From: Syntrophobacterales bacterium
Lineage (GTDB): Bacteria; Desulfobacterota; Syntrophobacteria; Syntrophobacterales; Thermodesulforhabdaceae
Length of the DNA stretch: 64,000 nt
NCBI GenBank assembly: GCA_026417655.1
Contig: JAOACS010000001.1
Span: 21,291 to 85,290 of the forward strand
Reading direction: 5' to 3'
Below the pieces are notes generated by a model. The model saw nothing but the letters and a program-made list of their open reading frames with translations, did not search any database and was not told the origin of the DNA. Below, piece after piece: positions 32,224 through 60,907 of the stretch (position 1 is its first letter; every line of letters begins with the position of its first letter). Made by a program: the position numbers and the translations under genes.

Positions 32224-33807
32224 ATGGTGACTCTTCTCGATTATGGGGCTGGAAATGTAAGAAGCGTTGTAAATGCCCTAACCACCTTGGGAGAGAAGGT
32301 TAAGTTTGTGAAAAGACCTGAGGACATAATCGATGCGGAAAAACTCGTTTTTCCTGGGGTAGGTTCCTTTGGCGAGATGATGAAGGTGCTAAAGAAAAAA
32401 GGTTTTGATGAGGCTTTGAGAGTCTATATCTTCTCTGGACGACCCTTTTTCGGTATTTGTCTTGGTCTTCAGGCTCTTTTTGAAGAAAGCGAAGAGTCTC
32501 CGGGTGTATCTGGGCTTGGGATATTTAAGGGGGTTGTTAGAAGGCTTAGAACCTCCCTTTCTGTTCCCCATATAGGGTGGAATGGTATCAAGGCTAGAAA
32601 ACCATCCTCCATATTCTCAGACATGAGAGGCACAGAAAAGTTTTATTTTGTTCATTCCTATTGTGTTGATCCAGAGGATACCAGTATTGTGCTCACTACT
32701 ACGGACTATGGAGAGGAAGATTTTGTGAGCGCTGTAGAATGGGGGAATCTGGTTGCTACCCAATTTCATCCAGAAAAGAGTGGTCAGGTTGGACTTAGGA
32801 TGTTAAGAAACTTTCTAGATGGCAAACAATTATCACCTCGTCTGCCTTCCTCTATACCTGAAAAGACTAAGCTTGCTAAACGTATTATAGCCTGTCTCGA
32901 TGTTCGTGCTAGTGATAGGGGAGAGTTGGTAGTTACGAAGGGGAATCAGTATGATGTGCGAGATCGGGAAAGTAGAGAAGTCCGAAACCTTGGCCATCCT
33001 GTGGAGCTTGCTCACCGTTATTACGAAGAGGGTGCCGATGAGATTACCTTTCTGAATATTACCGGTTTTCGAGATTTTCCTCTCCTTGATATGCCTATGT
33101 TGGAAGTTTTACGGAAGACCTCCGAACGGGTCTTTGTCCCCTTAACGATAGGAGGTGGAATTCGTGATTACGTTGATCGGCAGGGCCAGGAGTATTCGGC
33201 CCTTGATGTGGCCTCGGAATATTTCCGTTCCGGAGCCGATAAGGTCTCCATAGGAAGCGATGCGGTATTAATAGTGGAAGAAGTGCTTAGTCGAGGTCCT
33301 TCGGGAAAGAGTTCTATTGAGCAGATATCCCGGGTTTACGGAAATCAGGCGGTTGTTATCTCCATCGATCCACGTCGAGTATATGTATCTAAACCGACGT
33401 GGGGATCACATGTAGTGATTCCCACGAAGATTCCGGGGCCGAAGGGAGAACGTTATTGTTGGTATCAGTGCACAATAAAGGGTGGCCGAGAGGGAAGGGA
33501 TGTAGATGCGGTAACTCTTGCAAAGGTTTGTGAATCTCTTGGAGCGGGAGAGATCCTTCTAAACTCTATCGATAGGGACGGAACGAATAGGGGTTTCGAT
33601 ACGGAATTAGTGAAAGTAATATCTGATGCCGTATCTATCCCTGTTATCGCATCCAGTGGAGCTGGATGTGCAAGACATTTTCTAGAAGTCTTTCTTGAAA
33701 CCGATGTGGAAGCAGCCCTTGCGGCAGGTATCTTCCATAGAAGAGAAGTGACTATTCCAGAGGTTAAGGCCTTTCTAAAGGGGCACCTTGAGGTAAGGGA
33801 ACTATGA
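32224..33807 (+). CDS. hisHF: Fused imidazole glycerol phosphate synthase HisH-HisF (eukaryotic HIS7 type)
   Basis: A single 527-residue chain performs both half-reactions of IGP synthase in histidine biosynthesis. Residues 1-200 are the HisH glutaminase: LLDYGAGNVRSVVNAL, nucleophile in GICLGLQALFEES, and the His/Glu pair in QFHPEKSG. A linker of about 15 residues leads to the HisF barrel (from about 217): IACLDVRASDRGELVVTKGN, FLNITGFRDFPL, PLTIGGGIRDYV, VVISIDPRRVYV, ERYCWYQCTIKGGREGRD, EILLNSIDRDGTNRGFD, IPVIASSGAG. The two catalytic Asp are in CLDV and SIDP. The long insertions in the HisF part (DVRDRESREVRNLG, PKGERYCWYQ) match yeast HIS7 and not ordinary bacterial HisF. AAAGGAGA lies 8-13 nt before the ATG. 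The stop overlaps the next gene by 4 nt. No other his gene is nearby. Confidence 0.95.
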   Translation: MVTLLDYGAGNVRSVVNALTTLGEKVKFVKRPEDIIDAEKLVFPGVGSFGEMMKVLKKKGFDEALRVYIFSGRPFFGICLGLQALFEESEESPGVSGLGIFKGVVRRLRTSLSVPHIGWNGIKARKPSSIFSDMRGTEKFYFVHSYCVDPEDTSIVLTTTDYGEEDFVSAVEWGNLVATQFHPEKSGQVGLRMLRNFLDGKQLSPRLPSSIPEKTKLAKRIIACLDVRASDRGELVVTKGNQYDVRDRESREVRNLGHPVELAHRYYEEGADEITFLNITGFRDFPLLDMPMLEVLRKTSERVFVPLTIGGGIRDYVDRQGQEYSALDVASEYFRSGADKVSIGSDAVLIVEEVLSRGPSGKSSIEQISRVYGNQAVVISIDPRRVYVSKPTWGSHVVIPTKIPGPKGERYCWYQCTIKGGREGRDVDAVTLAKVCESLGAGEILLNSIDRDGTNRGFDTELVKVISDAVSIPVIASSGAGCARHFLEVFLETDVEAALAAGIFHRREVTIPEVKAFLKGHLEVREL

Positions 33808-35880: not shown

Positions 35881-35909
35881 TTGACCATTACTTTTCTTTT
35901 TTCTATAAG
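35881..35909 (+). promoter_or_regulatory. Promoter of the Phe-leader / Liv-2 / paaK operon
   Basis: TTGACC (-35) and TATAAG (-10) with an ideal 17-nt spacer, starting 11 nt after the dppC-like stop codon. Transcription is expected near 35916, giving a leader of about 295 nt before the binding-protein gene. Confidence 0.75.
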
Positions 35910-35965
35910 GAGATCGTAAAAGTTATCTTTAGGGGTATGTATTAGGGTTTATAGGAGAGAGATCT

Positions 35966-36055
35966 ATGACAGGGTTAAAAAGGTCCTTTCGTGGCTTCTT
36001 CTTTTGCTTTTTTAGAAAGGGGGAGCCTGCGATGGGACAAAAACTATATCCGTAA
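35966..36055 (+). CDS. Phe-rich leader peptide of a transcription attenuator
   Basis: A 29-codon reading frame with GGAG 8 nt before its ATG and a TAA stop at 36053. Six codons are Phe (codon 8, codons 11-13 and 15-16; residues 8-16 read FRGFFFCFF), recalling the PheL leader of E. coli pheA. It has no similarity to a functional protein and is followed by two terminators and then the transporter operon. The Phe codons 11-13 form the 5' arm of a hairpin (35993-36005 with 36015-36027), so a ribosome waiting for Phe-tRNA would block that hairpin. The count, placement and downstream structures support a leader role; translation itself is not proven. Confidence 0.8.
   Translation: MTGLKRSFRGFFFCFFRKGEPAMGQKLYP
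35993..36033 (+). promoter_or_regulatory. Protector hairpin (segments 1:2) of the Phe attenuator
   Basis: Segment 1 (35993-36005, the Gly-Phe-Phe-Phe codons) pairs with 36015-36027 in 13 consecutive pairs, four of them G-U, with a 9-nt loop. Segment 2 continues to 36033, and its last part CCTGCGAT (36026-36033) is the exact complement of ATCGCAGG at 36084-36091, the 5' flank and arm of the first terminator. The two pairings share 36025-36027 and so compete. Confidence 0.7.
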
Positions 36056-36085
36056 CCTTTAAAATTAGAAAAAGATAAAAGAGAT

Positions 36086-36127
36086 CGCAGGTGATCCCCC
36101 AAGCAGGTGGATCGCCTGCGGTTTTTT
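36086..36127 (+). terminator. First attenuator terminator T1 (segments 3:4)
   Basis: 36086-36097 pairs with 36109-36120 in 12 bp (one G-U), and the stem continues with two more pairs after a mismatch. Six T follow (36122-36127). The 5' arm can instead pair with leader segment 36025-36033 (9 bp, one G-U), which would prevent the terminator. Confidence 0.85.
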
Positions 36128-36148
36128 GTTTGTTGAAAGCCGTGGGCG
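36113..36148 (+). promoter_or_regulatory. Second antiterminator hairpin (segments 4:5)
   Basis: The 3' arm and U-tract of T1 (36113-36126) can pair with 36135-36148, the 5' arm and loop edge of T2, in 14 consecutive pairs (ten Watson-Crick, four G-U) around an 8-nt loop. It is mutually exclusive with both T1 and T2, so it can form only when the T1 3' arm has been freed. Confidence 0.7.
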
Positions 36149-36172
36149 TAGAAGCTCACGGCTTTCTTTTTT
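36135..36172 (+). terminator. Second attenuator terminator T2 (segments 5:6)
   Basis: GAAAGCCGTG (36135-36144) and CACGGCTTTC (36157-36166) form a perfect 10-bp stem with a 12-nt loop, followed by TTTTTT (36167-36172). It lies 38 nt upstream of the substrate-binding-protein ATG, so reading into the operon needs both terminators to be open. Confidence 0.85.
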
Positions 36173-36209: not shown

Positions 36210-37412
36210 ATGGAAAGTAGAAGGGGTAAAATTTCAAAAGTAAATTGGCAACGGATTCTAATGGCTATTTTCCTTATTTTTGTTTTGTCCTTTGGGTTAA
36301 TTTGGAGTGAAAGGGGAACGGATGCCAAAGATAAGGAACCATACAAAATTGGGGCGATCTTTTCGGTGACAGGTGTAGGATCCTTTCTTGGCGAGCCTGA
36401 AAAGAAGACAGCCCTTATGATCGTGGAAGAGGTAAATAAAAAGGGGGGAATAAACGGTCATCCTGTGGAGCTCATAGTCTATGATGATGAAAGCGATACA
36501 ACCAAGGCGGCTCTTGCTGCCAAAAGGCTTATAAAAAAGGATATGGTTTCAGTCATTGTTGGTCCCACAAGGAGCGGCGAAAGTCTCGCCGTAGTGCCAA
36601 TTGCTGAGGAGGCAAAGATACCTCTTATTTCTTGTGCTGCAAGCTACAAGATTGTTACCCCAGTTAGTGAGAGGCGTTGGATCTTTAAGACCGCCCAATC
36701 TGATCAACATGCCGTAGAGCAAATGTATGAATTCATGAGAAACAAGGGGATTCGCAAGGTGGGGATCTTAAGTGATTCCACAGGCTTTGGTGCAAGCGGT
36801 AGAGAGGAGCTTCTAAGGTATGCTCCCCACTATGGAATCGAAATTGTAGCCGATGAAAGGTATGGACCTAAAGACACTGACTTAACCGCTCAGTTTACAA
36901 AAATTCGTTCTCTTAAGCCCGATGCGATAATAAACTGGTCCATTGGACCCACCCAGATTCTTGCAGTTCAAACCTGGCGAAACCTTGGTATGACCGATAT
37001 ACCACTTTTTCAGAGTCACGGCTTTGGAAGTAGAAAGAATTTAGAGATTCTTGGACAGGCTGCCGAAGGTGTATTACTCCCCATCTCACCGGTTATTATT
37101 GGAAAACTCCTTCCCAACGATCATCCTCAAAAGAAGGTAACCGTCGAATATGCCAATGCCTATGAGACGCTTTACAAAGAGCCGGTTTCAGCCTTTGGTG
37201 GATACGCCTGGGATGCCGTTCAGCTCGCCCTTTCCGCCTTTAAGGCGGTAGGAAATGATCCAGCAAAGATTCGAGATTATTTAGAAGGTTTGAAAAATTT
37301 TGTGGGCCAGAGTGGAGTATTTAACTTCTCTCCAGATGATCATAATGGACTCACGAAGAAAGATTTGATAATGGTTGAAGTTCGTAACGGAGACTGGGTA
37401 TTAGCGAAGTAA
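36210..37412 (+). CDS. Branched-chain-type ABC transporter substrate-binding protein (system 2)
   Basis: A 400-residue periplasmic-binding protein. The N-terminus has basic residues and then a hydrophobic helix (RILMAIFLIFVLSFGLIW) acting as signal. The mature part begins PYKIGAIFSVTGVGSFLGEP and has DDESDTTKAALAAKRLIKKD and GPTRSGESLAVVPIAEEAKI. AGGAGG is 6 nt before the ATG. The Phe-rich leader upstream and paaK downstream suggest an aromatic amino acid or aromatic acid as ligand rather than leucine; this is inference. A hairpin separates it from livH. Confidence 0.9.
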   Translation: MESRRGKISKVNWQRILMAIFLIFVLSFGLIWSERGTDAKDKEPYKIGAIFSVTGVGSFLGEPEKKTALMIVEEVNKKGGINGHPVELIVYDDESDTTKAALAAKRLIKKDMVSVIVGPTRSGESLAVVPIAEEAKIPLISCAASYKIVTPVSERRWIFKTAQSDQHAVEQMYEFMRNKGIRKVGILSDSTGFGASGREELLRYAPHYGIEIVADERYGPKDTDLTAQFTKIRSLKPDAIINWSIGPTQILAVQTWRNLGMTDIPLFQSHGFGSRKNLEILGQAAEGVLLPISPVIIGKLLPNDHPQKKVTVEYANAYETLYKEPVSAFGGYAWDAVQLALSAFKAVGNDPAKIRDYLEGLKNFVGQSGVFNFSPDDHNGLTKKDLIMVEVRNGDWVLAK

Positions 37413-37490: not shown

Positions 37491-38363
37491 ATGTCGATTA
37501 TGGAAGAATTCCTTCAGTATCTGATCTCTGGCATAACGGTTGGTATGATCTATGTGCTTGTTGCCCTCGGTTATAACATTATCTACAACGTCACAGAGGT
37601 TATAAATTTTGCTCAAGGTGAGTTTGTAATGCTTGGTGGCCTCTGTGCCGTCTTCTACTATGAGAGTTTGCATCTTCCCCTGTGGGTTGCCTTTTTCATG
37701 TCGATAGGAACTGTTGGTGTGATTGGGCTTATCTTTGAGAAATTCGCTATCCGTTATGCAAGAAGTCAGAGTGTCTTGACACTGATTATAGTTACCATCG
37801 CCTTTTCTATTATACTGAAGGGGTCGGCCATGTTTATTTGGGGGAAGGATCCATATAGCCTTCCGGCCTTTTCCGCCGGCTCACCCTGGATGGTTGCTGG
37901 AGCAGCAGTTCAGAGGCAAAGCCTTTGGATTATGGGGATAAGTTTAGTTATTATCTCGGGGCTTTCCATATTTTTCCATAACTCCTTTTACGGTAAGGCC
38001 ATGTGTGCCTGTGCAGATAACCCCATAGCGGCTAAAATGATGGGAATTCCTGTGAGAAGAATGATCCTTCTTTCTTTTACTCTTAGCGCTGCTTTGGGGG
38101 CAGCAGGGGGTGTAATTATTACTCCACTATCTCTTATGGAGTATGATCGTGGAGCCTTACTTGGACTTAAGGGGTTTAGTGTGGCAGTTCTAGGGGGACT
38201 TGGTAATTTTTGGGGAGCCCTTATGGCGGGTATCTTTATAGGTATTGGGGAATCTTTCTGTGCGGGCTACATATCGTCGGGATATAAGGACGCCGTCGCG
38301 CTGGTGGCACTTTTGATAGTGCTCTTTGTAAGGCCTGAAGGACTCTTGGGTAAGACTAAGTAA
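37491..38363 (+). CDS. livH: Branched-chain-type ABC transporter permease LivH (system 2)
   Basis: A 290-residue permease with about eight helices. Marks are SGITVGMIYVLVALGYNIIY, VINFAQGEFVMLGGL (Gln where system 1 has His), and LGLKGFSVAVLGGLGNFWGA. GGGAG lies just before the ATG; a second ATG three codons in is also possible. Confidence 0.92.
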   Translation: MSIMEEFLQYLISGITVGMIYVLVALGYNIIYNVTEVINFAQGEFVMLGGLCAVFYYESLHLPLWVAFFMSIGTVGVIGLIFEKFAIRYARSQSVLTLIIVTIAFSIILKGSAMFIWGKDPYSLPAFSAGSPWMVAGAAVQRQSLWIMGISLVIISGLSIFFHNSFYGKAMCACADNPIAAKMMGIPVRRMILLSFTLSAALGAAGGVIITPLSLMEYDRGALLGLKGFSVAVLGGLGNFWGALMAGIFIGIGESFCAGYISSGYKDAVALVALLIVLFVRPEGLLGKTK

Positions 38364-38393: not shown

Positions 38394-39359
38394 ATGAATA
38401 GGAAGAATCTACCTGGATTTCTAGTTTTTCTGGTCTGTATTGGACTTTTTCCTGTCTTCGCAACTAGAATTTCTGCTATCCAACATTACTTAGATGTTAT
38501 GATCTTTGGTGGAATTTTTGGAATTGTGGCCATAGGGCTTTCTCTTCTTATGGGTTATGCAGGACAAATCTCCCTTGCTCATGCTGCCTTTATGGGGATT
38601 GGAGCCTACTCTTCAGGAATTCTTACCACCCATTTTAATTTCTCTCCCGTTCCTGCTCTTTTTCTTGGACTTCTGATAACGGCAATCATAGCCTTTTCCG
38701 TTGGAGTTCCCAGTCTTCGGCTTAAAGGACATTATTTGGCAATGGCCACCCTTGGGTTCGGTGTTATAGTCCACATCATATTTAGCGAGGAAGTCAATTG
38801 GACAGGGGGACCATCAGGTCTTGTGGGTATACCGGGTTTTGGTCTAGGGGATTGGAAATTGAAATCTACTCTTCAATGGTATTACTTCGTGTGGCTGTGG
38901 GTAGCTGTTTCTATTTTGATTGCTCTTAATTTGGTAAATTCCCGTATAGGCAGAGCATTTCGGGCTATTCATGAGGATGAGAAGGCGGCAGAGGCCATGG
39001 GGGTTCCCACAGCTCGATATAAGGTTCAGATATTCGTTGTAAGTGCAGCGATGGCGGCCTTTGCAGGAAGCCTTTATGCCCACTATGTGGAGTTTATTAA
39101 CCCGGGGTCCTTCGATCTCGTATGGTCGATAAGATTTATACTTATGGTTATGGTTGGAGGTATCCAAAGTATATGGGGTTCGCTTCTGGGGAGTCTGTTT
39201 TTAACCTTTCTTAGTAATGAATGGCTTCAGGTTTTTGCTGAGCTAGAGATTCTTATATATGGCATAATCTTATTTATAATTTCACTTTTCTTTCCCGATG
39301 GTCTATTTCCTGTTATCTTTCGTTTCTTAGCTCAACAGTTGGAGAGAAGGTATGAATGA
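38394..39359 (+). CDS. livM: Branched-chain-type ABC transporter permease LivM (system 2)
   Basis: A 321-residue permease. Marks are VAIGLSLLMGYAGQISLAHA, LKGHYLAMATLGFGVIVHII, and the C-terminal coupling region MVGGIQSIWGSLLGSLFL. It overlaps livG by 8 nt. Confidence 0.92.
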   Translation: MNRKNLPGFLVFLVCIGLFPVFATRISAIQHYLDVMIFGGIFGIVAIGLSLLMGYAGQISLAHAAFMGIGAYSSGILTTHFNFSPVPALFLGLLITAIIAFSVGVPSLRLKGHYLAMATLGFGVIVHIIFSEEVNWTGGPSGLVGIPGFGLGDWKLKSTLQWYYFVWLWVAVSILIALNLVNSRIGRAFRAIHEDEKAAEAMGVPTARYKVQIFVVSAAMAAFAGSLYAHYVEFINPGSFDLVWSIRFILMVMVGGIQSIWGSLLGSLFLTFLSNEWLQVFAELEILIYGIILFIISLFFPDGLFPVIFRFLAQQLERRYE

Positions 39360-40131
39360 AGCTTCTGAAATCCCCATATTGGAAATCAGAGAACTAGGAA
39401 AGAGCTTCGGAGGCGTTGAGGCGCTCCACGATATAACTTTTTCCGTCCCTTCGGGAGTTATCCAATCCATAATTGGACCAAACGGTGCGGGAAAAACCAC
39501 TCTTCTTAACTGCGTAAGTGGCATTATAAAACCTTCCCATGGAAAGATTTATTTTCTTGGTAAACCTATTGAAAATCTTCCCCCCCACAGGATAGCTACC
39601 CTTGGAATTTCTCGGACCTTCCAGCATGTGGCTCTCTTTAAAAGAATGACTGTCATAGAGAATGTAGCTATTGGTAGACACTCTAAAACGAGGTCGGGAT
39701 TCTTGGCTTGCACATTACGCCTCTCATCTATGAGGCGGGAGGAGAGGGATATATTTACCAAGGCCGAAGAATGGCTCGAGTTTGTAGGACTTTCTGATGA
39801 AATGTGGAAGGAGGCAGGATCTCTTCCTCTTGGAAAACAAAAGCTTTTGGAAGTCGCTAGAGCCCTTGCAGCGGAACCACGTTTACTTCTTCTTGACGAA
39901 CCTGCTGGAGGCCTGAACACTTCAGAAACAGAACAATTTGGTGATCTTATCGAAAGAATTCGAAATCTTGGTATTACGATCCTCCTAATAGAACACGATA
40001 TGAACCTTGTTATGGAAAAGTCGGACTATGTCGTAGTTCTACACTATGGTAAATTGCTTGCCACAGGAACACCTCGGGAGATTAAAAGAAATCCTCAAGT
40101 AATAGAGGTTTATCTGGGAAAAGAGGAATGA
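39352..40131 (+). CDS. livG: Branched-chain-type ABC transporter ATPase LivG (system 2)
   Basis: A 259-residue ABC ATPase with Walker A GPNGAGKTTLLN, SRTFQHVALFKRMTVIENV, a signature region LPLGKQKLLEVARALA and Walker B LLLLDEPAGGLNTSET, ending TPREIKRNPQVIEVYLG. The signature lacks the usual SGG/SYG Ser and has PLGKQ, as in some LivG proteins. It overlaps livF by 4 nt. Confidence 0.93.
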   Translation: MNEASEIPILEIRELGKSFGGVEALHDITFSVPSGVIQSIIGPNGAGKTTLLNCVSGIIKPSHGKIYFLGKPIENLPPHRIATLGISRTFQHVALFKRMTVIENVAIGRHSKTRSGFLACTLRLSSMRREERDIFTKAEEWLEFVGLSDEMWKEAGSLPLGKQKLLEVARALAAEPRLLLLDEPAGGLNTSETEQFGDLIERIRNLGITILLIEHDMNLVMEKSDYVVVLHYGKLLATGTPREIKRNPQVIEVYLGKEE

Positions 40132-40868
40132 GGGGAATGCTAACGGTAAAGAGTGTTCATGCCTATTACGGTGGGATCCATGCTTTGAAGGGTGTTTCTC
40201 TTCACGTTGCAGAAGGAGAGATTGTAACGCTTGTTGGAGCCAATGGAGCTGGAAAAACTACGATGGTAAGGGTCATTTGTGGGCTTCTCAAACCTTCTAA
40301 GGGATCAATCGTATTTGAGGGTCATAATTTGCTTTCGCTTTCTACAGAAAAAATAATAGAGCTTGGAATTGGACTGGTCCCAGAGGGTCGAGAGATCTTT
40401 TCAACCCTTTCTGTTGAAACCAATCTTGAAATGGGAGCCTTTCTTAAAAGAAAGGATCGAGCCTTTGTTGAAACTATGAAGGAACTAATGTTTTCTCGAT
40501 TTCCTGTCCTTAAAAAGAAGAGAAAACAACGAGCCGGCACAATGAGTGGAGGTGAGCAGCAAATGCTTGCCATAGCGAGAGCTCTCATGAGTCAGCCAAG
40601 ATTTCTGATCCTTGATGAACCTTCCTTAGGCCTCGCACCCCTTATTGTAAAAGAGATCTTTTCAATTATTGAAGAACTTAGAGCTGAAGGAAAAACCATA
40701 CTTCTTATAGAACAGAACGCTAAGGCTGCCCTTAAAATTGCCGACAGGGGTTATGTTTTCGAGACTGGGAAGGTTGTCTTGGAGGGAATAGGTGGGGAGC
40801 TATTGGAGCATAGAGAGGTCCAACGGGCTTATCTAGGTCGTGGAACCACAAAAATATGGGAGGCTTAA
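40128..40868 (+). CDS. livF: Branched-chain-type ABC transporter ATPase LivF (system 2)
   Basis: A 246-residue ABC ATPase with Walker A GANGAGKTTMV, signature MSGGEQQMLAIARALM, Walker B FLILDEPSLGLAPLIV, and the family end VQRAYLGRG. The paaK gene follows after 3 nt. Confidence 0.93.
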   Translation: MRGMLTVKSVHAYYGGIHALKGVSLHVAEGEIVTLVGANGAGKTTMVRVICGLLKPSKGSIVFEGHNLLSLSTEKIIELGIGLVPEGREIFSTLSVETNLEMGAFLKRKDRAFVETMKELMFSRFPVLKKKRKQRAGTMSGGEQQMLAIARALMSQPRFLILDEPSLGLAPLIVKEIFSIIEELRAEGKTILLIEQNAKAALKIADRGYVFETGKVVLEGIGGELLEHREVQRAYLGRGTTKIWEA

Positions 40869-40871
40869 AAC

Positions 40872-42194
40872 GTGCATTATGATTATAGAATTTGGGATCC
40901 GGAAAAGGAATGTATGGATAGGGAGGAGCTTAGGCAGTTACAGCTCGAAAGACTTCAGGCTACGTTAAATCGAGTCTATAAGAACGTATCCTTTTACCGA
41001 AGGCGTTTTAAATCTATAGGTTTCGTCCCAGAAGAGGATCTCACAGATATTGAAGATCTTAAAAAACTTCCCTTTACAACTAGCGAAGATATAAGCGACA
41101 GCTATCCCTATGAGATGTTTGCTGTTCCTCTTAGAGAGATAGTCCGTATTCACTCCTCCTCCGGAACCATGACAAATCCGCGGGTTGTGGGTTACACGAG
41201 ACAGGATCTAAAAATCTGGAGCCGTTTAGTTGCCAGGATACTAACTGCTGCGGGGGTAACTGCCGATGATGTTATTCAGGTAACCTTTGGATATGGGCTT
41301 CTTACAGGGGGGCTTGGGATCCATTACGGTGCCGAGCTCATAGGAGCGTCGGTCCTTCCCACTTCGACGGGTCGCACAGAAAGACAAATTCACATCATGA
41401 GGGATTTTAGAACCACAATCCTAGTATCAACACCATCCTACGCCTTGGTGATAGCTGACCGGATGGAGGCCCTGGGAGTTGATCCTAAGGCTCTATCCCT
41501 TAGACATGTTGTCTGTGGAGGGGAACCCTGGACGGAGGAGATGCGTCGCGAGATTGAGGATAGGCTCTTTGTCACAGCGACCGATAACTATGGTGTGAGC
41601 GAAGTTATGGGACCGGGAGTGGCCGGAGAGTGTCTGGAAAAAGCGGGTATGCATGTCCAGGAAGATCATTTTATAGTTGAAGTGGTAGACCCCGCTACGG
41701 GAGAAACGTTACCGCCGGGCTCTACTGGGGAATTGGTTATTACGACCCTTACGAAAGAGGCATTTCCGGTAGTTAGATACCGGACGGGCGATCTATGTAG
41801 TATTATAGAAACTCCCTGTGCCTGCGGGCGAACTACTGTGAGAATTAGTCGAATAGGTGGACGAAGCGACGACGTTGTAGTAATAAAGGGCATAAATATT
41901 GTGCCTAAACGAATAGGAGAGGTGCTTGAGAGGATTAAGGGCACTAGCCCTCCCTATCAACTTGTGGCCCTTCGGGAAGGTCATGAAGATCACCTAGAAA
42001 TTCGGATTGGAATTACAGAAGAGTTTTTCTTCGATAAGATGAGAGATCAGAAGACTTTGGTGGATGAGATGCGACAGAAGGTTGCAAACTTTATAGGTAT
42101 TACCCCAAGGATTCGGCTTGTCGAATTAAACTCTCTCAGAAGGGACCTCCATGGTAACGTGATACTTTTTGTGGACGAAAGAACTACTTCTTAG
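40872..42194 (+). CDS. paaK: Phenylacetate-CoA ligase (PaaK family)
   Basis: A 440-residue adenylate-forming enzyme that joins phenylacetate (or another aryl acid) to CoA with ATP. Marks are FYRRRFKSIGF, the AMP-binding loop HSSSGTMTNPRVVGYT, YGVSEVMGPGVAGEC, the hinge RYRTGDLCSI and the C-terminal RISRIGGRSDDVVVIKGINI. The start is GTG with GGGAGG 8 nt upstream. In anaerobes such ligases often take up aryl acids formed from phenylalanine, and the location at the end of a transporter operon under a Phe-rich leader fits this. The stop lies 2 nt from the convergent L,D-transpeptidase stop. Confidence 0.92.
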   Translation: MHYDYRIWDPEKECMDREELRQLQLERLQATLNRVYKNVSFYRRRFKSIGFVPEEDLTDIEDLKKLPFTTSEDISDSYPYEMFAVPLREIVRIHSSSGTMTNPRVVGYTRQDLKIWSRLVARILTAAGVTADDVIQVTFGYGLLTGGLGIHYGAELIGASVLPTSTGRTERQIHIMRDFRTTILVSTPSYALVIADRMEALGVDPKALSLRHVVCGGEPWTEEMRREIEDRLFVTATDNYGVSEVMGPGVAGECLEKAGMHVQEDHFIVEVVDPATGETLPPGSTGELVITTLTKEAFPVVRYRTGDLCSIIETPCACGRTTVRISRIGGRSDDVVVIKGINIVPKRIGEVLERIKGTSPPYQLVALREGHEDHLEIRIGITEEFFFDKMRDQKTLVDEMRQKVANFIGITPRIRLVELNSLRRDLHGNVILFVDERTTS

Positions 42195-45522: not shown

Positions 45523-46728
45523 ATGTCTTCTTTTCCTAAGGTTACAATATATACGGTTAAAGGATGTCCCTTTTGCGATAACGTAAAGGCCCTTTTCAAA
45601 GAAAAGGGGATTGAATTTCATGAAGTTGATGCGCCACCTCAGAGCGATCAATGGTTCGATCTTGTTAAAAAGACTGGAAGTGGTGCTTTACCTCAGATCC
45701 TTGTGGGGGACGAAGTCGTTGGAGGCTACCTCGATGTAATATTTTATGAAGCCTCGGGAATACTTTACCAAAAACTCGGTATCATTCCTTCCGAAGACCA
45801 TAGGAAGGTAGAGACCCTCTATGATGTAATAATACTGGGGGCAGGTCCTGCTGGACTTAGCGCTGCTATCTACTCTGCTCGTAAGGTTTTGAAAACTCTT
45901 GTCATTAGTGGTAATATTGGGGGACAGGTAACGTGGACCTACGACATTGACAATTATCTCGGATTTAGCCAGGTCAATGCCCAGGATCTCATTAGGAAAT
46001 TCAAAGAGCATGTTGAAAAATATGGGGTTGAAACCATAATAGGGCAGGAGGTTATTTCTGCTGATATAACCGGAAGGATTAAACGAGTCACCACAAGTGA
46101 CGGTCGTTCCTTCTATGGGAAGACTCTTATTATTGCTACGGGGGGACAACATAAACGACTTAACATTCCTGGTGAGAAGGAACTTCTTGGGCGAGGGGTC
46201 TCCTATTGCTCTACCTGCGATGCCCCATTATTTGCAGAGGCAGAAGTGGCGGTGATAGGAGGAGGCAACTCTGCTCTGGAGGCGGTCATAGACCTTATCC
46301 CCATTGCGAAACATGTATACCTTATTTCACTTACGGAGCTTACCGGCGATCCTCTCTTACAGAACAGAGTGAAACAGGCCAAATCGGTCGACATTTTTGT
46401 TCGTCATAAGCCTTTGGCTATTATTGGAAAACAGGAGGTTGAGGCTATCGAAATACTTTCCTTAGATGAAAATAAGACTAAGACTCTTACTGTGGAAGGT
46501 GTATTCGTTGAGATAGGCATCATGCCCAATTCATCACTTTTTGTGGATGTGTTGGCAACAAATGAAAAAGGCGAGATCATAGTTGATGAGATGTGTAGAA
46601 CTGGTGTTACAGGAGTTTTTGCCTGTGGTGATGTAACGAGTGTTCCCTACAAGCAGGTGGTTGTTGCAGCAGGAGAGGGAGCTAAAGCTGCCCTCTCAGC
46701 TTACAATTATCTTATTAACCGTAAATAA
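45523..46728 (+). CDS. Glutaredoxin-thioredoxin reductase fusion
   Basis: A 401-residue fusion. Residues 1-85 are a glutaredoxin domain with VKGCPFCDNVKALF (CPFC) and ALPQILVGDEVVGGY. From about residue 100 comes a low-molecular-weight thioredoxin reductase: FAD site VIILGAGPAGLSAAIYSA, redox pair in YCSTCDAPLF, NADPH site VAVIGGGNSALEAVIDL and C-terminal FAD motif GVFACGDVTSVPYKQVVVAA. Electrons would pass from NAD(P)H through FAD and CSTC to the attached CPFC. The NADPH loop lacks the usual HRR Arg pair (it reads LISLTELTGDP), so coenzyme preference may differ from E. coli TrxB. Confidence 0.92.
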   Translation: MSSFPKVTIYTVKGCPFCDNVKALFKEKGIEFHEVDAPPQSDQWFDLVKKTGSGALPQILVGDEVVGGYLDVIFYEASGILYQKLGIIPSEDHRKVETLYDVIILGAGPAGLSAAIYSARKVLKTLVISGNIGGQVTWTYDIDNYLGFSQVNAQDLIRKFKEHVEKYGVETIIGQEVISADITGRIKRVTTSDGRSFYGKTLIIATGGQHKRLNIPGEKELLGRGVSYCSTCDAPLFAEAEVAVIGGGNSALEAVIDLIPIAKHVYLISLTELTGDPLLQNRVKQAKSVDIFVRHKPLAIIGKQEVEAIEILSLDENKTKTLTVEGVFVEIGIMPNSSLFVDVLATNEKGEIIVDEMCRTGVTGVFACGDVTSVPYKQVVVAAGEGAKAALSAYNYLINRK

Positions 46729-60557: not shown

Positions 60558-60666
60558 TGTATTGGAAAGAGGAACTCAAGATATTGAGGAGTCTTGGGGT
60601 ACTGATAGTAGCGTGAGTAAGTAGTAGTAAGCCTAGGTATTGGGCTTGTTAACATATTTTGTATTC

Positions 60667-60836
60667 GCCCCTGGAGTGTTGGTGATCGGTAGAACGTCTC
60701 TGAGCCAACACTAACAAACTGGGAGCCGCCTCTTACTCTGGTGTGGAAGTTCCCCGGAACTTCCCTAAAGGAGTAATGTGGCACCCACCTAGTCGAATCG
60801 GTTCAAGACCGACTACTGACACGGCATTCTGGGGGC
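60667..60836 (+). ncRNA. ssrS: 6S RNA
   Basis: The ends GCCCCTGGAGTGTT (60667-60680) and GGCATTCTGGGGGC (60823-60836) pair along all 14 positions with several G-U pairs, giving the closing stem of 6S RNA. Inside, TTACTC and GAGTAA and a perfect GGAAGTTC/GAACTTCC hairpin lie toward the apex. The 3' part GGTTCAAGACC...CGGCATTCTGGGG matches the conserved 3' end of proteobacterial 6S RNA (GGTTCAAGGG...GGCGGCATCT in E. coli). The location directly before rny is usual for the lineage. It sequesters sigma70 RNA polymerase in stationary phase. Ends are approximate. Confidence 0.82.
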
Positions 60837-60907
60837 AAGATGCCCGCCTTCTCGTATCTTAGGGGTTCCTATAATTAATTAAGAATCTGTGTATCTCCTA
60901 GTCATGA

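Follow-up and report, generated by a model that had tools for sequence, protein, structure and literature searches.

The leader and the operon at the locus

The window analysed here is the whole 64,000-nt stretch of DNA from a Syntrophobacterales bacterium related to Thermodesulforhabdus, and its element of interest is the leader at positions 35881 to 36172, which precedes the operon livK-livH-livM-livG-livF-paaK (order from a Pfam search; a convergent gene comes next). We read this leader as a ribosome-mediated phenylalanine (Phe) attenuator that turns on livKHMGF-paaK, by which an aryl acid would be imported and activated with coenzyme A (CoA) for Phe synthesis, and we put the probability of this reading at roughly two in three. 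The signals of the leader and the genes behind it are as follows.

35881..35909, + strand: promoter-like TTGACC-17 bp-TATAAG, read by eye
35953..35957, + strand: AGGAG, likely ribosome-binding site of the leader peptide, 8 nt 5' of the ATG (sequence)
35966..36055, + strand: leader peptide MTGLKRSFRGFFFCFFRKGEPAMGQKLYP (sequence; Phe leaders in 5/5 family genomes)
36210..37412, + strand: livK, periplasmic binding protein (Pfam PF13458; nearest solved relatives include aromatic-acid binders)
37491..38363, + strand: livH permease (PF02653)
38394..39359, + strand: livM permease (PF02653)
39352..40131, + strand: livG ATPase (PF00005, PF12399)
40128..40868, + strand: livF ATPase (PF00005)
40872..42194, + strand: paaK-like gene, predicted arylacetate-CoA ligase (PF00501/PF14535)

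The initial annotation, made from the letters of the window, had claimed a promoter and a Phe-rich frame of 29 codons. The frame was found as described, with TAA after its 29 codons and Phe at codons 8, 11-13, 15 and 16. Among the 1354 short frames of the window (10-45 aa; 734 and 620 on the two strands) no other reaches 6 Phe within 9 residues, and the clustered cognate codons lie in a short, translated-looking frame directly before the switch, as expected of an attenuator. The promoter is supported by the reading by eye but not by a consensus scan of the window, which lists no site here and requires the second hexamer to end in T.

Alternative helices in the leader

Downstream of the first codons the RNA can be divided into six segments, each of which can pair with its neighbour. 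The resulting helices, two of which are predicted terminators (T1 and T2), are given below together with one competing hairpin.

35993..36027, + strand: helix 1:2, protector, 35993-36005 with 36015-36027, 13/13 pairs; forms with the ribosome at codon 1
36019..36100, + strand: helix 2:3, antiterminator, 36019-36033 with 36084-36100, 15 pairs and a 2-nt bulge, -29.2 kcal/mol as a duplex
36079..36127, + strand: T1, helix 3:4, predicted terminator, 36079-36097 with 36109-36127, 19/19 pairs, U-run 36122-36127
36103..36119, + strand: alternative hairpin of 7 pairs, two bases (Gs) before the U-run of T1, -9.4 kcal/mol (terminator scan)
36113..36148, + strand: helix 4:5, anti-T2, 36113-36126 with 36135-36148, 14/14 pairs, -20.7 kcal/mol
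36135..36172, + strand: T2, helix 5:6 (36135-36147 with 36154-36166, 13/13 pairs) and U-run 36167-36172, predicted terminator, -23.6 kcal/mol

The antiterminator consists of 36019-36024 with 36095-36100 (6 pairs), the bulge, and 36025-36033 with 36084-36092 (9 pairs), and it and the U-tailed terminator T1 are mutually exclusive, which is the arrangement that defines an attenuator. The stop codon of the leader peptide begins 20 nt 3' of segment 2. All five successive helices claimed in the initial annotation are present, and their lengths were right for 1:2 (13 pairs) and 4:5 (14 pairs), whereas 2:3, 3:4 and 5:6 comprise 15, 19 and 13 pairs rather than 9, 12 and 10. Four consecutive exclusive helices with a score of at least 20 were observed, and in 1000 dinucleotide shuffles the maximum was three, reached once, so that the chain surpasses every shuffle. 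Moreover, the fold of 35990-36172 has a z-score of -7.5, with none of 200 shuffles equally stable. The terminator scan of the window lists T2; at the U-run of T1 it lists the hairpin 36103-36119 instead of 3:4, because the 11-nt loop of 3:4 exceeds the limit of the scan. This hairpin draws on segment 4 and is compatible with 2:3.

Folding with the ribosome at different codons

The leader was folded with the RNA covered to 11 nt beyond the first base of the A-site codon, at 11 ribosome positions (codons 1, 8, 11-13, 15, 16, 18, 20, 23 and 30). In transcripts ending at 36102, 2:3 is formed with 14-15 of its 15 pairs when the A-site is at codons 8, 11, 12, 13 or 15, and with 9 of 15 at codon 16; 1:2 is formed at codon 1, and neither 1:2 nor 2:3 at codons 18, 20, 23 and 30. 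Thus a ribosome at the cognate codons is predicted to free the antiterminator, and a ribosome elsewhere is not, again as in an attenuator. Upon completion of T1 with the A-site at codon 1, 3:4 is favoured over 2:3 by 21.7 kcal/mol.

Phe leaders in the family and Tyr leaders outside it

For comparison within the family Thermodesulforhabdaceae we used five genomes (G000-G004). A Phe leader stands ahead of the orthologous livK in all five, so the check for conserved Phe codons in orthologous leaders, which had been proposed from the sequence, came out positive in 5/5 genomes. The peptides read ...GFFFCFFRKGEPA (G000, G001), ...MFYFYFYFFT (G002), ...DCFCFFR (G003) and MKTPFSGFCFYFFS (G004); that of G003, with just 3 Phe among 9 residues, was recognised by eye, outside the frame filter. 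In all five Phe leaders the list of strongest stems includes each of the helices 2:3, 3:4, 4:5 and 5:6, despite subtype differences of sequence in segments 2, 3 and 4. A strong 1:2 is listed in G000 and G001 only, and the counterpart of 3:4 is without a U-run in G003 and G004. Among the extra or upstream livK copies of the family one of five has a leader, a tyrosine (Tyr) leader before livK1 of G002. In that genome (L040:283-3113) two attenuators that differ in specificity follow one another, the Tyr leader ahead of livK1 and the Phe leader between livK1 and livK2. In G004:C7 a long frame rich in Phe lies 377 nt upstream of livK; as no terminator separates the two, it was not counted as a leader.

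Close livK orthologues occur in 11 of the 297 genomes of a phylum sample, the window's own among them. Outside the family a Tyr-rich leader was found at 31 of 38 livK loci (22/25 best-hit loci, 8/12 further loci, and L046), for example YYYSYIYSRRSALA in G031 and GYYYYGYLRRSAL in G005. These and other leaders were chosen by eye from short-frame lists that also contain unrelated frames; L034 and L137, which are cut by contig ends, were kept in the denominators, and L047 (53% identity) was left out. The tandem-hairpin layout recurs in 21 of the 22 Tyr leaders examined: a segment that is mostly GGCGGUCUGCCC or alike is followed by T1, mostly GCCGUGGGCAGACCGC...GCCCACGGC, and then by T2, mostly GCCGUGG...CCACGGC. 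When these 21 Tyr leaders and that of G002 livK1 were aligned, the helices of the ON state (2:3+4:5) were paired in 96.1% of cells (37-43% when slid), and those of the OFF state (3:4+5:6) in 96.6% (34-56% when slid). Four leaders (L014, L130, L131 and L135) combine Tyr and Phe codons and perhaps sense both amino acids. Ahead of second-tier livK genes (45-51% identity) no convincing leader was seen in any of 10 regions (L138-L147); a 3-Trp frame far upstream in L138 and L140-L142 was taken as part of a neighbouring gene, presumably.

According to the initial annotation, homologous leaders without Phe codons would speak against the proposal. Such leaders do exist outside the family, where they are Tyr-rich. 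Judged by the codons, the sensed amino acid is different, Tyr versus Phe, on one kind of operon, and attenuation is not refuted by this switch. The suggestion that the element has no function and that a Phe-rich frame happens to lie next to two terminators could draw on the missing consensus site in the promoter scan, but it is contradicted by the comparative data, namely conservation in 5/5 family genomes and Tyr counterparts at 31/38 further loci, and by the shuffle tests; we consider it extremely improbable.

Proteins of the operon and paralogous modules

Among solved structures, a group with aromatic-acid ligands comes nearest to LivK (3sg0, E 3.7e-51; 4dqd, 6.4e-51), compared with 1.8e-30 for 4gnr, the top named LIV-type entry that does not belong to it, and 2.2e-8 for the Leu-binding 1usg. 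It scores 71.1 bits with the NCBIfam branched-chain model NF011933, below the cut-off of 477, although fold and Pfam family do match. The nearest structures of PaaK are phenylacetate-CoA ligases, with 2y4o as the best solved match (E 1.6e-116), and its score with TIGR02155 is 489 bits, below the cut-off of 646.3. In all five Tyr-leader loci checked the operon continues with iorAB. An IOR alpha subunit above the TIGR03336 cut-off is present in at least one copy in 5/5 family genomes.

It is possible, but in our judgement unlikely, that the operon imports Phe itself (Tyr in the relatives), so that the attenuator would induce an amino-acid importer in starvation and PaaK would have another purpose. 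By annotation, importers of the Liv type take up amino acids, and uptake would be just as compatible with control by Phe starvation; paaK, however, belongs to the same operon, as does iorAB in 5/5 checked relatives, and LivK falls nearest to the aromatic-acid binders 3sg0 and 4dqd, with 71 bits against the 477 of the branched-chain cut-off.

Family genomes also carry a paralogous operon, iorAB-livH-livMG(-livF)-paaK-livK, in which no livF frame was seen in G000 and G001; the contig of G002 ends within livK. A tryptophan (Trp) leader (FWWCWWW...GVRSAHR or similar) precedes its iorA in 5/5 family genomes (L082-L087), with one terminator each by eye. The DAHP synthase paralogues of these genomes served as an internal control: they bear a Phe leader (aroF-pheA) in 5/5 cases, a Tyr leader in 5/5, and a Trp leader at 4/4 copies found (none was found in G002). 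Therefore the leader residue before the operon of the window is meaningful. The Tyr leader peptides of the DAHP synthase paralogues (L069, L070, L073, L074 and L075, 5/5 family genomes) have a single terminator by eye. G000 has its second Phe leader, ending GFGFFFFFRKPPEGY, before the aroF-pheA-type DAHP synthase (L002:1433-1543, G000:C2 near 178500), where the layout is relay-like with one terminator.

Degradation of phenylacetate or Phe for energy was also considered, with the coupling of the leader inverted in some way. Phenylacetate degradation classically begins with PaaK, but a shortage of Phe is predicted to raise expression through stalling at Phe codons, leaders of like kind stand on DAHP synthase genes, and the operon as listed contains importer genes and paaK only, which together make a catabolic role quite improbable. 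A plain 'Phe degradation operon' was rejected on the first of these grounds. A starvation switch suits synthesis and not breakdown, and the direction of the operon is therefore read as synthesis.

Weighing the attenuator and its relay

In the relay, pairing of segment 4 with segment 5 would tie T2 to the ribosome position that governs T1. Structure was analysed for 28 of the 37 livK-type leaders, with the 8 Tyr leaders of further loci and L046 left out; 27 of the 28 have the relay layout and form the relay set, L037 being dropped for its single terminator. The T1 and T2 arms were corrected by hand in five livK-type leaders and set by eye in nine DAHP-type leaders. Helix 4:5 can be formed in 27/27 leaders of the set, at -7.6 to -22.7 kcal/mol as duplexes, and is weaker than 5:6 in 22/27. 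When the duplex energies of own and swapped arms were compared within these 27 leaders, 2:3, 3:4 and 5:6 each gave 0/20000. For the 36 leaders combined, aroF-pheA included, the observed mean for 4:5 was reached in 0/50000 permutations, a result carried by the aroF-pheA group, and changes on both sides were found at 3 of 9 pairs of 4:5. Furthermore, 3:4 is without a U-run in G003, G004, L036 and 5/5 aroF-pheA leaders; in these, therefore, 4:5 is the sole link between leader and terminator, and T2 the sole terminator.

Several observations weigh against our interpretation. Upon completion of T1, 3:4 lies below 2:3 by 2.6-4.3 kcal/mol with the A-site at codons 11-13, 6.5 at codon 8, 4.8 at codon 15 and 13.1 at codon 16, where the 2:3 state includes the hairpin of 7 pairs at 36103-36119. 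In the full leader, OFF lies below ON by 12.6-24.4 kcal/mol at the 8 positions computable for both. Since the equilibrium always prefers OFF, the modelled two-state switch must depend on co-transcriptional kinetics. Moreover, the hairpin 36103-36119 and the U-run of T1, present in G001 too, can persist beside 2:3 in the ON state, and this hairpin might terminate irrespective of the ribosome position. Within the 27 livK leaders the own-versus-swapped test of 4:5 gave 1512/20000, which is not significant. L037 has T1 alone and no T2, and 7 of the 38 livK loci outside the family have neither a Tyr nor a Phe leader. The terminator core occurs outside known leaders at 3 of 6 places in G003 and 6 of 7 in G031, where the reversed control pattern of the core is found at 3 places. 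The iorA-first operon outside the family has a Trp leader at just 4/25 loci. The window's genome has its other IOR at an unlinked site, with no leader recognised ahead. Lastly, the ligand of LivK, probably an aryl acid, is deduced from its relatives.

G000 and G001 each contain the core pattern three times, in DAHP leaders, and by this count a 'general genomic terminator core' was ruled out for these two genomes. Further GCCGTGG..CCACGGC hairpins outside known leaders were noted in G003 (C36:38207-38232, C53:12704-12733, C66:6907-6941) and are possibly more attenuators. Upstream of the other IOR copy no leader was recognised in the five family genomes; a Phe-rich frame 691 nt upstream of that copy in G004 has no terminator behind it and was not taken as a leader.

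These results also bear on a simpler scheme, in which a classical attenuator acts at T1, T2 is a second, partly leaky terminator, and 4:5 is a by-product of a duplicated core. The GCCGUGG core common to T1 and T2 in most Tyr leaders, the lack of significance of 4:5 in the livK set and the ability of L037 to manage without T2 all agree with it. On the other side, a T2 that is not disarmed would halt the transcripts passed by T1, T2 is the sole terminator in the eight leaders named above, and the aroF-pheA leaders retain 4:5 with a different core, together with the result of the 36-leader test and the changes on both sides. We hence regard the simpler scheme as rather unlikely, and the relay as probably real.

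As claims of the initial annotation, the Phe attenuator and its relay are upheld by the five family Phe leaders, by masked folding and by 27/28 layouts, but not by the equilibrium energies or by the modest covariation of 4:5, which sets that helix apart from 2:3, 3:4 and 5:6. Likewise, stalling was said to give 2:3 and 4:5: with segment 1 blocked and unblocked, folding does yield 2:3 at Phe codons and 1:2 at codon 1, yet OFF is lower in energy wherever computed.

Proposed mechanism

In the attenuator that we favour, scarce charged tRNA-Phe would cause the ribosome to stall at Phe codons 8-16, by which segment 1 is covered and the 2:3 helix of 15 pairs is predicted to form. With segment 3 occupied by 2:3, T1 would not be formed in time, a kinetic argument; segment 4 would pair with segment 5, T2 would not be formed either, and transcription would enter the operon. 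When Phe is plentiful, the ribosome is predicted to proceed over segment 2 toward the stop codon, blocking 2:3, upon which T1 and then T2 form. Without translation, 1:2 and both terminators are predicted. The imported phenylacetate-like acid would be activated by PaaK, reductively carboxylated by an arylpyruvate:ferredoxin oxidoreductase and transaminated to Phe; this oxidoreductase would be the one encoded elsewhere in the window's genome, and within the same operon in the relatives checked.

Comparison with known systems

In the available text of its description, the his operon attenuator has stems AB/CD/EF and the alternative DE (PMC10989985). The leader of the window resembles that of Salmonella and E. 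coli his in its six segments, its alternating helices, the decision by a ribosome on cognate codons and the final terminator. The alternation of 1:2, 3:4 and 5:6 with 2:3 and 4:5 is complete in the window, and 2:3 to 5:6 recur in the relatives. As far as the his sources consulted go, uridines follow EF alone, the codons are those of His and the operon is biosynthetic, whereas in the window 3:4 is U-tailed too and the operon encodes an importer and a CoA ligase. The last helix is thus not the sole terminator in the window, but it is in G003 and G004. In the part of a modelling paper at hand, low basal read-through is linked to two designs, a far-downstream stop codon or the extra middle hairpin of the his leader, which lowers basal read-through in the model (PMC1183508). 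The same source counts pheA among the attenuators.

The enterobacterial pheA and pheST systems share with the window the run of Phe codons and the switch between antiterminator and terminator, but their target genes differ. Their attenuators have four segments and one terminator. Tandem attenuators of Salmonella mgtCBR likewise have more than one control point per leader; they use two short open reading frames, as far as the source material goes, and are not known to relay one ribosome position in an amino-acid-specific way. No Phe-leader family is among the 12 Rfam matches listed to E 10, the best listed being PyrR with 36.9 bits, under its threshold of 54, and the Rfam searches yielded no leader family.

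Methanogens and rumen bacteria use IOR and a CoA ligase in a route from arylacetate via arylacetyl-CoA and arylpyruvate to the amino acid. In the literature surveyed no attenuator is described for this route, whereas here each module bears a leader matching its amino acid. In titles and the start of abstracts of the open-licence literature we found no relevant report of an amino-acid attenuator on Liv/PaaK/IOR operons, and the literature surveyed does not describe a Tyr-to-Phe leader switch or a relay with a U-tailed middle helix. The survey of proteobacterial attenuators by Vitreschak and colleagues may already include part of these findings. The initial annotation knew of no precedent, which does not hold for the six-segment relay, known from the his operon, but does hold, within the sources above, for the U-tailed middle helix and for aromatic attenuation of a Liv/PaaK(/IOR) operon. 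What is new is that an operon of this type is controlled by an attenuator, that the leader has switched from Tyr to Phe, and that one relay has two U-tailed terminators, the relay itself being his-like.

Other features of the window

At 32224-33807 a glutamine amidotransferase and a His_biosynth domain share one frame, as in a HisH-HisF-type fusion. At 45523-46728 a glutaredoxin-like start is joined to a thioredoxin-reductase-like part (by eye), and 60665-60839 is 6S RNA (Rfam RF00013, 95.4 bits).

Implications

The operon of the window and the related operons with Tyr- or Trp-rich leaders probably serve to regenerate aromatic amino acids from aromatic acids taken up by the cell, and not to break these acids down. 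We see about even odds for the complete picture, which combines a salvage in three branches (phenylacetate, 4-hydroxyphenylacetate and indoleacetate to Phe, Tyr and Trp, by paralogous importer, CoA-ligase and oxidoreductase modules with matching leaders), a shift of the sensed amino acid from Tyr to Phe in a single orthologous operon, and a five-helix relay through which two serial terminators obey one ribosome position. Liv importers beside PaaK and IOR are readily taken for systems of branched-chain amino-acid uptake or of phenylacetate degradation. Where a starvation switch specific for one amino acid stands in front of them, DNA alone points to synthesis as the probable direction and to a probable product for each module, by which the gene roles become directly testable. 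The tandem-terminator relay and the Tyr-to-Phe leader switch moreover provide a natural series on how the specificity of an attenuator changes.
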